Shown here: one piece after another, positions 905 through 6,138 of the stretch
Layout: each line of letters opens with the position of its first letter
Numbering within the stretch: the first letter of the stretch is position 1
Source: a virus
Strand: one strand, 5' to 3'
Length of the DNA stretch: 25,112 nt
Virus record (IMG/VR): IMGVR_UViG_3300027782_000341
Location: 1-25,112 of that record
Position numbers and translations under genes: made by a program
The notes under the pieces: generated by a model
What the model saw: only the letters and a program-made list of their open reading frames with translations
Told to the model about the DNA's origin: nothing
The model's database searches: none

Positions 905-1036
905 ACCCCTTATATACGATTACTTACTACATTACTACGCTACTATATACACTATATATATATAGACTATAGACGATATACGATAGTCAATAGAAATTAT
1001 ATATCTATATACGATAGTTGATAGAAATATATCATA
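905..1036. repeat. AT-rich tract with two phased 22-bp repeats
   Basis: The tract is almost entirely TATA/ATAG/CTAT words. Two 22-bp direct repeats at 976-997 and 1007-1028 share ATATACGATAGT and ATAGAAAT and differ at two bases. They start 31 bp apart, close to three helical turns. This suggests iterons, a DNA-unwinding element or a bent upstream promoter element; the sequence alone cannot decide. Confidence 0.6.
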
Positions 1037-1043
1037 GCGTAAA

Positions 1044-1072
1044 TGGTTGCATAACCTAGATTTAGGTATAAT
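1044..1072 (+). promoter_or_regulatory. Promoter of the ArdC operon
   Basis: A perfect TATAAT -10 box lies at 1067-1072. A weak -35 (TGGTTG, 1044-1049) sits 17 bp upstream; the alternative TTGCAT (1047-1052) would leave only 14 bp. Transcription would start near 1079, giving a leader of about 43 nt before the ATG at 1122. The second early promoter at 3241 shares the T(G/A)GTTGCAT, AGATTT and GGTnTAATC words. Confidence 0.6.
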
Positions 1073-1096
1073 CAATCTATGCAAACTAATTGCATA
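1047..1096. promoter_or_regulatory. Candidate operator: three TTGCATA half-sites
   Basis: TTGCATA occurs at 1047-1053, its reverse complement TATGCAA at 1078-1084, and TTGCATA again at 1090-1096. The last two form a perfect 7-bp inverted repeat, TATGCAAACTAATTGCATA, right at the predicted transcription start. The first overlaps the -35 area. TTGCATAACCTA is an exact 12-bp repeat (1047-1058 and 1090-1101). A nested ACCTA-GATT-TAGGT dyad (1054-1067) abuts the -10. The layout suits a repressor, or an mRNA hairpin just before the ribosome site. Confidence 0.5.
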
Positions 1097-1121: not shown

Positions 1122-1973
1122 ATGCAACAATCAATTTATGACAATGTTACGAATAGAATTATTGAAGAGCTAGAGCGTGGCGCTGCACCCTGGATCAAAC
1201 CCTGGAATGCTGGCGTTAGTGAAGATCAAAATATTGTGAGCCATAAGCCATACCAGGGAATAAACCGTTTAATTCTAGGTATGAGCGGTTATACATCGCC
1301 GCTATGGGGTAGCTTTAAACAATGGCAAGCGCTTGGCGGTATGGTTAAAAAAGGCGAAAAGGGTACGCAAATAGTTTTTTACTCACCCATTAAAAAAGAG
1401 GGTATTAACGAAAATGGGCAAGTAGAAAACAAGAGCTACCATTGTTTGAAAAGCTATTTTGTGTTTAATGCAAGCCAGGTTGAGGGAATAGACTTTGTGC
1501 AGCCTAAGCCTACAATCGAAGTGTTTAACCCTGTACCCGCTTTAGATGATCGTATTCTAAAAACAGGCGCAACAATCAAGCATGGATTAAGCCAGGCATT
1601 TTATCGCCCTGGTGATGATTTTATTGGTATGCCTGATAAAAACATTTTCAAGAGTGAGAGCGATTATTACGCTACCGTATTGCATGAACTCACCCATTGG
1701 AGCGGCGCTAAGCATAGGCTAGATCGTACTAAGGGCGCTCGCTTTGCGGATGCTGCTTATGCTTTTGAAGAGCTGGTGGCGGAGATGGGCGCTGCATTTT
1801 TATGCCAGGATTATGGGATTAGTGGCGATTTACGCCATGCTGATTATATTGGTAGCTGGCTTAAATGCTTGCGTGCTGATAATAAAGCAATATTTAACGC
1901 TGCAGCATTAGCACAAAAAGCAGCAAACTACATAAACGAGCTAGATTGTTTAACTAACCAGGCAGCAGCCTAG
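1122..1973 (+). CDS. ardC: ArdC-like antirestriction protein (zincin-type)
   Basis: The protein has 283 residues and two ArdC parts. The N-terminal half (about 1-130) begins with the typical IYDNVTNRIIEELERG...PW.KPWN pattern and includes the W-x-x-F-KQWQALGG-x-VKKGEKG block of the ArdC ssDNA-binding domain. The C-terminal half is a metallopeptidase-like domain with HELTH at 188-192 and a downstream EELVAEMG helix (216-223) supplying the likely third zinc ligand. ArdC proteins of plasmids bind ssDNA and protect incoming DNA against type I/II restriction; that role here is inference from the family. The start is supported by AAAGGGGAT upstream. It is the first gene of a short operon with its own promoter and a terminator at 2719. 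Proteolytic activity is not established. Confidence 0.88.
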   Translation: MQQSIYDNVTNRIIEELERGAAPWIKPWNAGVSEDQNIVSHKPYQGINRLILGMSGYTSPLWGSFKQWQALGGMVKKGEKGTQIVFYSPIKKEGINENGQVENKSYHCLKSYFVFNASQVEGIDFVQPKPTIEVFNPVPALDDRILKTGATIKHGLSQAFYRPGDDFIGMPDKNIFKSESDYYATVLHELTHWSGAKHRLDRTKGARFADAAYAFEELVAEMGAAFLCQDYGISGDLRHADYIGSWLKCLRADNKAIFNAAALAQKAANYINELDCLTNQAAA

Positions 1974-2883: not shown

Positions 2884-3015
2884 CCCTCGGGCGTGTGTGC
2901 GCTTTATCGACCTGATTGGCTCTCTTTTTTCGCTACCTCATGCGCCCAGGTCATTCTGGACCTCATCCGTCAAGCCCTGGAGATCGTGAACCCCAACGAT
3001 ACCCCAAAAACCCCA

Positions 3016-3215
3016 TACATAGATGTTACTAGACGATGTATAACTCCGATGTATATACTACCTCTATGTCTATTAGAACTACTATGTCTATTCTACGAAG
3101 TTATATGATAGAGATAGTATAGGCGTATAACTCGTATAACTACGAAATATATTTTACGAAGAATAGTCTATTCGTATATATATCTATAGAAGTATATAAA
3201 TATCTATGTATGCTT
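3016..3215. repeat. AT-rich tract with several families of short direct repeats
   Basis: Seen directly: CGATGTATA at 3034 and 3047; CTATGTCTATT at 3064 and 3082; CGTATAACT in perfect tandem at 3124 and 3133; TACGAA at 3094, 3141 and 3155. A perfect 13-nt palindrome GAATAGTCTATTC lies at 3161-3173. The repeats differ from those at 905-1036, but both tracts sit in the same place relative to a 16-bp repeat and a promoter. Origin or multi-site regulatory region. Confidence 0.6.
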
Positions 3216-3240
3216 TATACAACACCAATGATTAAAATAA

Positions 3241-3270
3241 TAGTTGCATTAGATTTGTTCATGGTGTAAT
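3241..3270 (+). promoter_or_regulatory. Probable promoter of the recombination operon
   Basis: TGTAAT (3265-3270) can serve as -10, with TAGTTG (3241-3246) as a weak -35 at 18 bp. The segment shares T(G/A)GTTGCAT, AGATTT and GGTnTAATC with the ArdC promoter, which is the stronger argument. The ATAACCTAAC leader follows at 3294. Confidence 0.45.
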
Positions 3271-3318
3271 CTACGCTTGTAGCACCTAATCAGATAACCT
3301 AACTAGAGGACAATTCGT

Positions 3319-3528
3319 ATGAAACTATGCACTAGCTGTATGCACCTACGCTCGGGTGATGAGTGTTCTGTATTACCCCAAGTCAATCCTGTTAACGGCA
3401 AACCAATCTATTCGTTTGCATATACCTATCGCATGAATGAAGAACGATGCGGTATGGATGCCAAGTGGTTTGAAGAAGTTGACCACGAAGCGCTTGATGA
3501 ACTATCCACAATTCCATTCGGGAGATAA
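3319..3528 (+). CDS. Small zinc-ribbon-like protein
   Basis: The 69-residue product starts MKLCTSCMHL and has further cysteines in DECSV and in ERCGMDAKWFEE. C4, C7, C16 and C44 could bind one zinc ion. The CG-x(3)-KWFE ending is common in small phage proteins of unknown role. GAGGA (3306-3310) is the ribosome site. First gene of the long early operon, so possibly a regulator, but no DNA-binding fold can be named. Confidence 0.65.
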   Translation: MKLCTSCMHLRSGDECSVLPQVNPVNGKPIYSFAYTYRMNEERCGMDAKWFEEVDHEALDELSTIPFGR

Positions 3529-3531
3529 ACC

Positions 3532-3735
3532 ATGGCAAGAACCAAAGGTAGCACCAATACAACCACAACCCTACAAAGGCGGATTACAGCGCTAGAAGGA
3601 TTAATTGAACGCCAGGATGAAGCTGTTGAACAAGGGTTAGATGAGATAGCAGAGCTACGCAAGCAAGTGGACTTCTATCGCAAGCAAGTTAATCATCTAA
3701 TTGCACTACTCAACATCATCACAAGAGGTGCATGA
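3532..3735 (+). CDS. Small coiled-coil protein
   Basis: The 67-residue product has a basic, Thr-rich N-terminus (MARTKGSTNTTTT) followed by a continuous heptad-like helix (about residues 15-60, LQRRITALEGLIERQDEAVE onward) expected to form a coiled coil. It begins 3 bases after the previous gene behind GGGAGA, and its stop overlaps the exonuclease start (ATGA, 3732-3735). Tight coupling to yqaJ/recT suggests an accessory of recombination; function unknown. Confidence 0.65.
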   Translation: MARTKGSTNTTTTLQRRITALEGLIERQDEAVEQGLDEIAELRKQVDFYRKQVNHLIALLNIITRGA

Positions 3736-4637
3736 TGGCTAATGCTCAAACAGACTTTGCGCCCGAGGTACGCAATAGCGCCTGGTGGAGTGGTGATTCC
3801 CGCATGGCTGCTAATGGTCGTGCGGTGGATGTCATACTCACCAAGCAAGGTAAACGAGAAGCGCCAGACCTATCCGATGTCGAAGCGGTGCAGATGGGTC
3901 ATATCATGCAGCCTGTGATTGGGCGCTTGTTTCAAGACAAACACAAGATAGAGTTAAAGGAAGCGGACTATGCTCTCACTCACCCCAAACACGATTGGAT
4001 GCGTTCTCATTTTGATTTCATTAGCGCAGATGGTACTGTGCTTGTTGAAGCTAAAAACTATAACGCTGGAGTTCGTAATAAGTTTGATGCCGATGCTAAT
4101 CGGATTCCTGATGCTGATCTTGCCCAGCTCATACACGAATGTGCTTGTCATTCTATCGATCGTATATTTCTGGCTGTTCTATTTGGTGGAAGCGAATTCG
4201 TAACCATTGAGTTTGAGATCACCGAGGGTATGAAAGATGACCTAGTACAGCGCATGGCTAAGTTATGGGCGTATTGCAAGACCGATACCCTACCACCCGC
4301 AGAAACCATCGAGCAAACCAAGCTGGTATATCCAACCAGCACCGATGAAACGATTGTTGCAACGCAAAATGTAGAGGTAGCAGTCGCCCAGCTCAAGCAA
4401 TATAAAGCCAACATCAAGGCGCTAGAGGATCAGAGCGAAGCCCTAGAGGTAGCAATCCGCAACACCATGGGAGATAAGGGTGAGATTGTATCCATCTCAG
4501 GAGATACCTTAGTAACCTGGCGCAGTAGTAAGAGCAGTAAGCGCTTCTCAAGTGATCTCTTTAAACAAGCAATGCCTGACATTTACGAGCAGTTTGTGAT
4601 TGAGCAGCCTGGCAGTCGTAGATTTTTAGTGAAGTAA
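3732..4637 (+). CDS. YqaJ/lambda-exonuclease-type recombination nuclease
   Basis: The 301-residue protein has the YqaJ viral recombinase layout: an N-terminal DNA-end motif (RNSAWWSGDSRMAANG, 14-29), a helix QMGHIMQPVIGRLF (54-67), and the PD-(D/E)XK core with RSHFDFI (Asp95) and LVEAKNY (Glu106, Lys108). A QLIHECA helix around 132 follows. Such enzymes digest one strand of duplex ends 5'->3' for the partner annealase, which is the next gene. The C-terminal third (about 205-301) is a coiled-coil plus small domain common in phage homologues. Odd: the helix residue that is Glu in most relatives (E85 in lambda Exo) appears to be Gln60. The start may be ATG 3732 or 3735; the former overlaps the previous stop. 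Confidence 0.85.
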   Translation: MMANAQTDFAPEVRNSAWWSGDSRMAANGRAVDVILTKQGKREAPDLSDVEAVQMGHIMQPVIGRLFQDKHKIELKEADYALTHPKHDWMRSHFDFISADGTVLVEAKNYNAGVRNKFDADANRIPDADLAQLIHECACHSIDRIFLAVLFGGSEFVTIEFEITEGMKDDLVQRMAKLWAYCKTDTLPPAETIEQTKLVYPTSTDETIVATQNVEVAVAQLKQYKANIKALEDQSEALEVAIRNTMGDKGEIVSISGDTLVTWRSSKSSKRFSSDLFKQAMPDIYEQFVIEQPGSRRFLVK

Positions 4638-4661
4638 AGACACCTAATGAAAGGGGATAAG

Positions 4662-5501
4662 ATGAGCAATATTGTGAGTTTTACCGATATGTCGCAGATG
4701 GCAGAAGCAATCGCCAAAAGCGGTTTATTCGGGATGAAGGACACCAATAGCGTACTAGCGCTAATGGCAGTAGCACAAGCAGAAGGTATGCACCCCGCCA
4801 CAGCAGCACGGGATTTTCATATCATTCAAGGCAGACCAGCATTAAAAGCCGATGCGATGCTAGCAAGGTTTCAAAATGCGGGCGGTAAAGTTCAATGGAA
4901 GGATTACACAGATGAACAAGTTACAGGCGTATTTAGTCACCCCAACGGTGGAGAGCTTGCCGTTACCTGGACAATCGAACAAGCAAGCAAGATCGGACTG
5001 GTCAAACCAGGCTCAGGCTGGCAAAAGTTCCCAAGGGCAATGCTACGATCCAGGTGCATTTCAGAAGGTATACGAAGCGTCTTTCCTGGATCAGTTACAG
5101 GGTTCTACAGCCCTGAAGAAGTGGCTGATTTCGAACCCAAAGACATGGGAAAGGCTGTCAACCTCTCAGAGATTAAAAGCGATGAGCTTACCATTGACGA
5201 AGATAGCGGGGAAGTAGCACCACCCATGGTCAAGGGTAACTTTGCTGCCCATGTCCATAAACTCCATCTGTATGTGCCAGGTCAAGAAGAACCCTATGCA
5301 ACCTACTTATCCCTAGAGGATTGGATTGAGGGGTTTTTAGACATCTTTGCTCGTATTCAGAACTCAAGCAAATATGACGATAAAGAGAAAACCAAGAAGT
5401 ACAACCAATTGCGTGCTGCCAATGATGCCTTTACAAAGACATTTAGCGGTACGCAAACATCCAAGTTTTTAACCAAAATAGCTGAAATAAGGAGAGATTG
5501 A
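4662..5501 (+). CDS. recT: RecT-family single-strand annealing protein
   Basis: The 279-residue protein matches the RecT core: ALMAVAQAEGMHPATAARDF, followed by HIIQGRPALKADAMLARF, GELAVTWTIEQASKIGLVK, and WQKFPRAMLRSRCISEGIR with FPGSVTGFYSPEEV. This family coats ssDNA and anneals complementary strands, paired with the exonuclease encoded just upstream. The C-terminal part (about 190-279) is variable and helical. The start at 4662 is preferred over an in-frame ATG at 4647 because AAAGGGG (4650-4656) is correctly placed before it. The stop overlaps the next start (TGATG). Confidence 0.88.
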   Translation: MSNIVSFTDMSQMAEAIAKSGLFGMKDTNSVLALMAVAQAEGMHPATAARDFHIIQGRPALKADAMLARFQNAGGKVQWKDYTDEQVTGVFSHPNGGELAVTWTIEQASKIGLVKPGSGWQKFPRAMLRSRCISEGIRSVFPGSVTGFYSPEEVADFEPKDMGKAVNLSEIKSDELTIDEDSGEVAPPMVKGNFAAHVHKLHLYVPGQEEPYATYLSLEDWIEGFLDIFARIQNSSKYDDKEKTKKYNQLRAANDAFTKTFSGTQTSKFLTKIAEIRRD

Positions 5502-5764
5502 TGAGTAATGGACATATCGCCCAGATGGGCAAAGGCGTATTGTTTGGTAACGCTGATAAGAAGCATGAGAAAGCACCCGATTGGAAGGGTACACTCTTGC
5601 TTTCTGAGGACTACAAAGCGGGTCAAACGCTCAAGATTGCTGGCTGGACTAAGAACACCCCCAAAGGGCAGTTAATTAGCTTGTCTGAGGATACTTGGAA
5701 GCCACAAAACCCCCAGCAGTACCCCAGAGAAACCAATGCCAATGACGGTGAAGTACCATTCTGA
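5501..5764 (+). CDS. Small SSB-like protein with acidic C-terminal tip
   Basis: The 87-residue protein begins around GKGVLFGNADKKHEKAPDW and continues with short beta-like segments KGTLLLSE, TLKIAGWTKN and QLISLSEDTWKP, a pattern like small OB-fold/DUF736-like proteins. It ends NDGEVPF, close to the DDDIPF tip by which bacterial SSB recruits partners. The tail before it is disordered and Pro/Asn-rich. Its place between recT and rusA strongly supports an ssDNA role. No full SSB domain is recognisable, so direct DNA binding is inference. AAGGAGAG ribosome site at 5489-5496; the stop overlaps the next gene. Confidence 0.6.
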   Translation: MSNGHIAQMGKGVLFGNADKKHEKAPDWKGTLLLSEDYKAGQTLKIAGWTKNTPKGQLISLSEDTWKPQNPQQYPRETNANDGEVPF

Positions 5765-6138
5765 TTAAGCTGGACTTGCCCTACCCGCCATCCATTAATA
5801 ATTATTGGATAGCGAGTGGGCATCGTAGGTTTATTAGTAAGCGTGGGCAGTTATTCCGCCAAGAAGTAATGGTAGCGTGTTTACAAGGGAGAGTACCAAA
5901 ATTGGGTTCACAGTCGCTCATGGTTCACATTATTTTGCAACCACGCAATAAGAAGTTGATGGATATTGATAACTGCGCCAAAGCAATTTTAGATAGCTTA
6001 GAGAGTGCGGGCGTTTTCAGTTCGGATGTCCAGGTGCAAAAGCTCTTAATTGAGCGTGGTAAGCCAATTAAAGGCGGTGGCTGTCAAGTAATGATTGAGG
6101 TAATCCCCTCTAGCTCAGAGGAGAATCCGCAAGGATAG
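5761..6138 (+). CDS. rusA: RusA-type Holliday junction resolvase, probable CTG start
   Basis: The protein shows the RusA pattern LPYPPSINNYW at the N-terminus and MDIDNCAKAILDSLESAGVF then SSDVQVQKL, giving catalytic-type Asp68, Asp70 and Asp89 and Lys74. RusA dimers cut four-way junctions, the last step of the Exo/RecT pathway upstream. No ATG or GTG exists near the 5' end. The first conventional codon is TTG 5776, which would remove the first beta strand. CTG at 5761 overlaps the previous stop as CTGA, like the ATGA overlaps elsewhere in this operon, and yields the family-typical (M)IKLDLPYPPS. I therefore prefer CTG; ATT 5764 is a further option. Confidence 0.85.
   Translation: MIKLDLPYPPSINNYWIASGHRRFISKRGQLFRQEVMVACLQGRVPKLGSQSLMVHIILQPRNKKLMDIDNCAKAILDSLESAGVFSSDVQVQKLLIERGKPIKGGGCQVMIEVIPSSSEENPQG

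Follow-up and report, generated by a model that had tools for sequence, protein, structure and literature searches.

Dimeric operators may lie across +1, as lac O1 does. The element described here, a palindrome at the predicted start of a phage operon that includes an ArdC-like anti-restriction gene, resembles such operators in its perfect symmetry, its length of about 19 bp and a centre near +10, and it differs from them in that its spacer is variable, it occurs once per record and no regulator was found. A likeness of another kind is offered by the 5′ stem-loop stabilisers of E. coli ompA and papA, which in the accounts of PMC3997798 and PMC7509114 have a short stem on the first transcribed base or beside it, an open leader and a Shine-Dalgarno sequence, with the position of the stem outweighing its sequence. 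The same accounts state that 5′ stem-loops protect mRNA in other bacteria and that RppH of Bacillus requires two or more unpaired bases at the 5′ end (PMC3997798, PMC7509114). Unlike in ompA and papA, the stem considered here belongs to a phage early operon ("early" being the word of an earlier note on this DNA), is AU-rich and weak, stands at a predicted start and is missing from some relatives.

The nearest published parallel is the ardC promoter of the conjugative plasmid p576, EGeRS2, which shares with the present locus an early ardC, a strong promoter and inverted repeats in the leader, as far as PMC8708921 describes it. According to the legend of its Fig. 1, the ardC leader of p576 has two short inverted repeats that are held to lengthen the RNA half-life (PMC8708921). 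The plasmid differs in its direct dual heptamers TTATCCCnnTTATCCC, to which the RHH repressor Reg is reported to bind at four promoters (PMC8708921); no repeated operator and no Reg was found here.

The palindrome, its promoter and the leader

The DNA analysed, called the window below, was a viral record of 25,112 bp. A perfect inverted repeat, TATGCAA-ACTAA-TTGCATA (TATGCAAACTAATTGCATA), was found on the plus strand at 1078-1096, with 7-bp arms, a 5-nt spacer and no mismatch (7-5-7 geometry). It is preceded by a perfect -10 element, TATAAT (1067-1072, plus strand). Judged from the position of this element, transcription would start at A1079 (plus strand), the seventh base past the -10, so that the predicted start coincides with the beginning of the dyad. 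The motif TTGCATA is present near the promoter at 1047-1053 (plus strand), at 1078-1084 (minus strand, reading TATGCAA on the plus strand) and at 1090-1096 (plus strand), and the 12-mer TTGCATAACCTA is repeated exactly at 1047-1058 and 1090-1101 with an offset of 43 bp; the earlier note had given the repeat, the third TTGCATA and the 12-mer with the right letters and coordinates. The most upstream copy, GTTGCAT (1046-1052, plus strand), was read as a -35 element lying 14-15 bp before the -10. The spacing from TTGCAT (1047-1052) to TATAAT is 14 bp, tighter than for a standard -35, and the 1047/1067 promoter was absent from the list of a promoter scanner that allowed spacers of 16-18 bp only.

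From 5′ to 3′ the order is TATAAT, dyad, AACCTAACCTAA, the Shine-Dalgarno-like AAGGGGA and the ArdC-like gene from 1122. The leader wording AACCTAAC, followed by AAGGGGA, occupies 1096-1113 on the plus strand and recurs in relatives. The ArdC-like gene (1122-1973, plus strand) encodes 283 aa, stands first in the operon here and matched ArdcN (E 1.4e-33) and MPTase-PolyVal (E 2.5e-47). One exact copy of the dyad was present in the window and likewise one in each of the four records with the dyad when 14 records were searched.

What exceeds chance, and well beyond it, is the position of the dyad right after the -10 and not the frequency of TTGCATA, which alone was not enriched (10 copies in the window versus 7.2 +/- 2.9 expected). 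The window does contain further perfect inverted repeats with arms of 7 bp or more and loops of 2-8 nt, as 13 listings that overlap one another and leave out some TA-rich repeats; a 7-bp repeat inside the 35 nt after this -10 was obtained in none of 300 dinucleotide shuffles.

Farther upstream, a conserved element GATAGTTGATAGAAATATATCAT lies at 1013-1035 (plus strand), 54 bp before the -10. This distance is 43 bp in L082, L095 and L104, i.e., shorter by 11 bp or one helical turn, and the whole-turn shift suggests that whatever may bind the element does so on a fixed face. The direct repeats ATATACGATAGTYRATAGAAAT (976-997 and 1007-1028, plus strand) are 91% alike and 31 bp apart, the second one overlapping the upstream element. 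They form part of an AT-rich array at 940-1035, with GATAG and GACTATAG words and the two 22-bp direct repeats, which is conserved before the promoter and could possibly represent activator sites, an UP element or an origin. Searching the genome_contigs set with the upstream element gave two loci, both without the promoter and taken as chance matches, and no host was found in this way.

Conservation and variation among relatives

The search with ArdC yielded 80 viral loci, four of which (L003, L016, L033 and L073) had no upstream DNA, so 76 of the 80 were compared upstream. Many of the 80 have no similar promoter directly before ArdC; the leader AACCTAAC with its Shine-Dalgarno sequence nonetheless recurs. 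The wider comparison of ArdC promoters did not include L001, L118 and L119. Two scans were then combined in which the dyad was not used. The P scan employed the stretch from -35 to -10, requiring GTTGCATAA and TATAATCA, and gave 21 loci; the B scan employed the upstream element GATAGNNGATAGAAATATATCAT, blind to the dyad and to the -10 alike, and gave 20. Together they comprise 24 dyad-blind loci, among which L083 and L117 are not counted.

In 19 of these 24 loci a perfect inverted repeat with arms of 7 bp or more begins 3-5 nt past TATAAT; one of the 19, L084, has the same promoter sequence as the window and is not informative. The promoter was kept and the repeat absent in the other five (L098, L099, L101, L103 and L104), whose leader reads CAAACTGTANTNCTAATGTTTATAACC. 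In the set used for shuffling and folding, which, like the comparison of a palindrome at 713-731 described below, omitted the near-identical L087, L097 and L100 (they appear the same as L086 and L096 and are counted in the 24-locus tally), 14 of 17 distinct segments carried the repeat, each with p<0.05 against shuffles. In 20/20 loci of the B scan, TATAAT follows the upstream element at a distance of 43 or 54 bp, counted from where that element starts. A gapped pattern running from the -10 to the leader returned 24 loci, 13 of them new; 12 were chance-like, and L117 is a member of the family with a dyad-less leader. The interpretation in the earlier note is supported in that the predicted start of an operon including ArdC does bear a conserved palindromic element. 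The note had also held that its reading would fail if relatives kept the promoter and not the dyad, and such a loss is what the five loci display.

Among 24 records examined for gene order, some have ArdC directly behind the promoter, as in the window; elsewhere the leading position is taken by a small ORF of 35-86 aa, mostly with ArdC no more than about 500 bp farther on. In L086 and L089 the DNA downstream of the promoter yielded no ArdC. The first start codon lies 39-46 nt past the predicted start region, whichever gene leads. The element is thus no "ArdC operator" as such, for the same promoter leads into different small ORFs in relatives. These ORFs (35-86 aa) vary between promoter and ArdC in L014, L015, L082, L086, L088-L092, L096, L102 and L104, and they are candidates for early anti-defence genes.

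Besides TATGCAA/TTGCATA, the arms were found as TATGCTA/TAGCATA (L093), as TATATGCT/AGCATATA (L095) and as TATGAGA/TCTCATA, the latter in L083, which came from a scan that used the dyad, and in L059, which was reached through ArdC. The spacer has 5 nt, but only 2 nt in L096, L097, L100 and L102, where the stem and the arms are kept. In an alignment of 13 distinct segments, L083 and dyad-less rows included, 89.5% of the cells were paired versus 16-58% in slid registers, and three pairs were altered on both sides in a compensatory way. No G-U pair occurred in any dyad-bearing stem, each kept change being Watson-Crick on both sides. At other ArdC-phage promoters, unrelated stems were seen 4-6 nt past the -10, namely CATAGTC-TATAT-GACTATG in L017, ATATAGTC in L029, the arms ATATAGCTAT/ATAGCTATAT in L044 and the above TATGAGA/TCTCATA in L059; ATAGTC-TATAT-GACTAT was invariant in 10/10 promoter copies printed, 8 of which had been found using its left half as the query, and a scripted search of L049 gave no good stem at the start. 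Relative to the start that the -10 predicts, the first base of the inverted repeats falls between -3 and +1 (offsets 3-6). Pairing was conserved over sequence in the both-side changes, in the unrelated sister stems and through the change of spacer, with 5/24 loci having no stem. It is palindromy at one place, rather than one sequence, that is under selection.

Hairpin, operator or leader peptide

In the earlier note, three TTGCATA sites, one over the -35 and two in the dyad, 43 bp apart, were proposed to serve in looping or cooperative repression. The presence of three copies in a stretch of 50 bp and an offset close to four helical turns are in keeping with that model, from which co-evolution of the sites would be expected. 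However, among the 24 loci and the window all four combinations occur (upstream TTGCATA and dyad both present in 18, dyad only in 2, upstream copy only in 4, neither in 1); in L093 the arms have changed and the upstream copy has not; and the exact 12-mer repeat at 43 bp was seen in 6/25. Moreover, a second promoter of the window, with GTTGCAT at 3243-3249 and TGTAAT at 3265-3270 before an ORF at 3319, has no such dyad. The looping or three-site model is therefore not supported and we regard it as very improbable. Since the upstream TTGCATA is independent of the dyad and recurs dyad-less at the second promoter, it would best be read as a -35 element and not as a second operator. Its conservation is to be taken from the B scan (17/20), because the P scan itself demands GTTGCATAA and TATAATCA.

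A further candidate for such a site was rejected. TTTGCAA-N5-TTGCAAA (713-731), considered as a distant looping partner, is present in the dyad-less L098 and absent from the aligned region of distant relatives; near-copies such as TATGCAACAGTATTGCATG resemble a coding stretch of ArdC (1668-1686 in the window). The sequence at 713-731, TTTGCAAATTGCTTGCAAA, is another palindrome of 7-5-7 geometry and lies about 353 bp upstream of the -10, a distance that is almost unchanged in L088, L098, L099 and L102.

The reading that we favour, by a modest degree of confidence and from sequence comparison, is that the dyad forms the 5′-terminal stem-loop of the presumed early mRNA. Initiation at A1079 would give an RNA beginning AUGCAA-ACUAA-UUGCAU, with 0-1 unpaired 5′ base, and the stem would be followed by the open AACCUAAC leader, the Shine-Dalgarno sequence and, about 40-46 nt downstream, the first gene. 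A 5′-end paired in this manner would block pyrophosphate removal by RppH as well as 5′-end entry of RNase E, and the blocked decay may result in a longer-lasting transcript of the anti-restriction operon. An mRNA hairpin had been named in the earlier note as the alternative to be examined by RNA folding. RNA from +1 folded at -3.8 to -5.0 kcal/mol in the folded dyad alleles with the rest of the leader nearly open. Against the hairpin, the stem is weak and rich in A and U (about -4.4 kcal/mol), and its z-score is only -0.82 in 83 nt of context. The dyad-less leaders of 5/24 loci were unstructured (0.0 to -0.3 kcal/mol), and as these loci keep the promoter, the stem must be dispensable. Masking of the Shine-Dalgarno sequence was considered and rejected, as the stem does not reach it in the fold.

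The serious rival is a single 19-bp DNA operator across +1, through which a dimeric regulator of the phage or its host would repress the operon, the differing arm alleles standing for different specificities and the upstream TTGCATA being excluded from the site. Perfect Watson-Crick palindromes, mostly 7-5-7, do stand at the start in several unrelated sequences, and the complete lack of G-U pairs, with Watson-Crick changes on both sides, is as a DNA palindrome would require and counts against RNA; so does the constancy of ATAGTC-TATAT-GACTAT, which is like that of a sequence-specific site. Dyad and non-dyad alleles were also found behind near-identical promoters (L094 versus L098, L085 versus L101), like immunity-type swaps, and ardC of p576 is described as repressed by Reg (PMC8708921). 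On the other hand, the half-site spacing expected of a repressor operator is not constant: the spacer shrinks from 5 to 2 nt with the same arms in L096, L097, L100 and L102, which favours a hairpin and should not be tolerated by a protein dimer of fixed spacing. Operators of Reg lie at four promoters including that of reg itself, as PMC8708921 relates, whereas the dyad recurs neither at further promoters nor beside a regulator gene, with one exact copy in each record (records that may be incomplete), and the second early promoter of the window has none. No repressor was recognised by Pfam among the 37 ORFs of the window, neither HTH nor another repressor family, in agreement with the earlier note; a repressor could still be encoded by one of the small unmatched ORFs, and the record is possibly incomplete. 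A stem at the predicted first bases of unrelated promoters, its single copy per record and the open leader were counted for RNA. Taken together, the evidence leans to a 5′ hairpin in RNA, and a single operator is possible at a distinctly lower probability.

It was further considered that ATG CAA ACT AAT TGC ATA ACC TAA (1079-1102) is a leaderless micro-ORF encoding a leader peptide, with the palindrome secondary. The ATG would lie at the predicted +1 in TATG-type alleles and the 3-nt deletion in the spacer preserves the frame, but the codons vary while the pairing is kept, no such ATG opens the sister stems CATAGTC and ATATAGCTAT, and a near stop is to be expected because TAA is frequent in the leader. 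There is little to recommend this explanation, which we consider hardly probable at all.

The surrounding operon and its wider meaning

The word AACCTAA(C) lies just before the Shine-Dalgarno sequence of three genes (1096-1107, 2245-2261 and 3296-3303), accounting for all five AACCTAA copies of the window, and it precedes many genes in relatives too. A terminator-like hairpin, AAGGGGTTAGTATATCTAACCCTTT, followed by a T-run at 2718-2742, probably closes the ArdC operon. The region of the second promoter (3014-3319) has AT-rich upstream DNA, GTTGCAT, TGTAAT and the leader TTGTAGCACCTAATCAGATAACCTAAC, and an open leader word, TGTAGTA, recurs at predicted starts in relatives. Beyond it, at 3732-6138, lies a recombination module consisting of a YqaJ-like exonuclease, RecT, an ssDNA-binding-like protein and a RusA resolvase.

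Against phages, no match was obtained by megablast of the first 6 kb or by tblastn of the 818-aa protein, and the tRNA search found none. ArdC matched in 57 phage records, all below 60% identity, and the host is not fixed thereby. Rfam gave no match, and the listings of our literature search showed nothing on a 5′ hairpin at phage ArdC promoters; PMC8835761 has no bearing on the matter. The conserved element is real and belongs to a known kind, and no annotated close relative was found for the group of uncultured phages that carries it. As a more speculative thought, which we hold to be rather unlikely, the phages may swap leader alleles, with differing hairpins or open GUAGUA-type leaders, behind the same promoter; how long the mRNA of the anti-restriction operon lasts, or how it responds to a regulator, would then be a switchable module differing between phages whose promoters are near-identical.

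If the hairpin reading is true, this phage family keeps a paired 5′-end on a presumed early anti-restriction mRNA, with the sequence changing and the stem kept. The dosage of counter-defence would then be tied to mRNA decay and not to a repressor, and caution would be due before every palindrome at a phage transcription start is called an operator.
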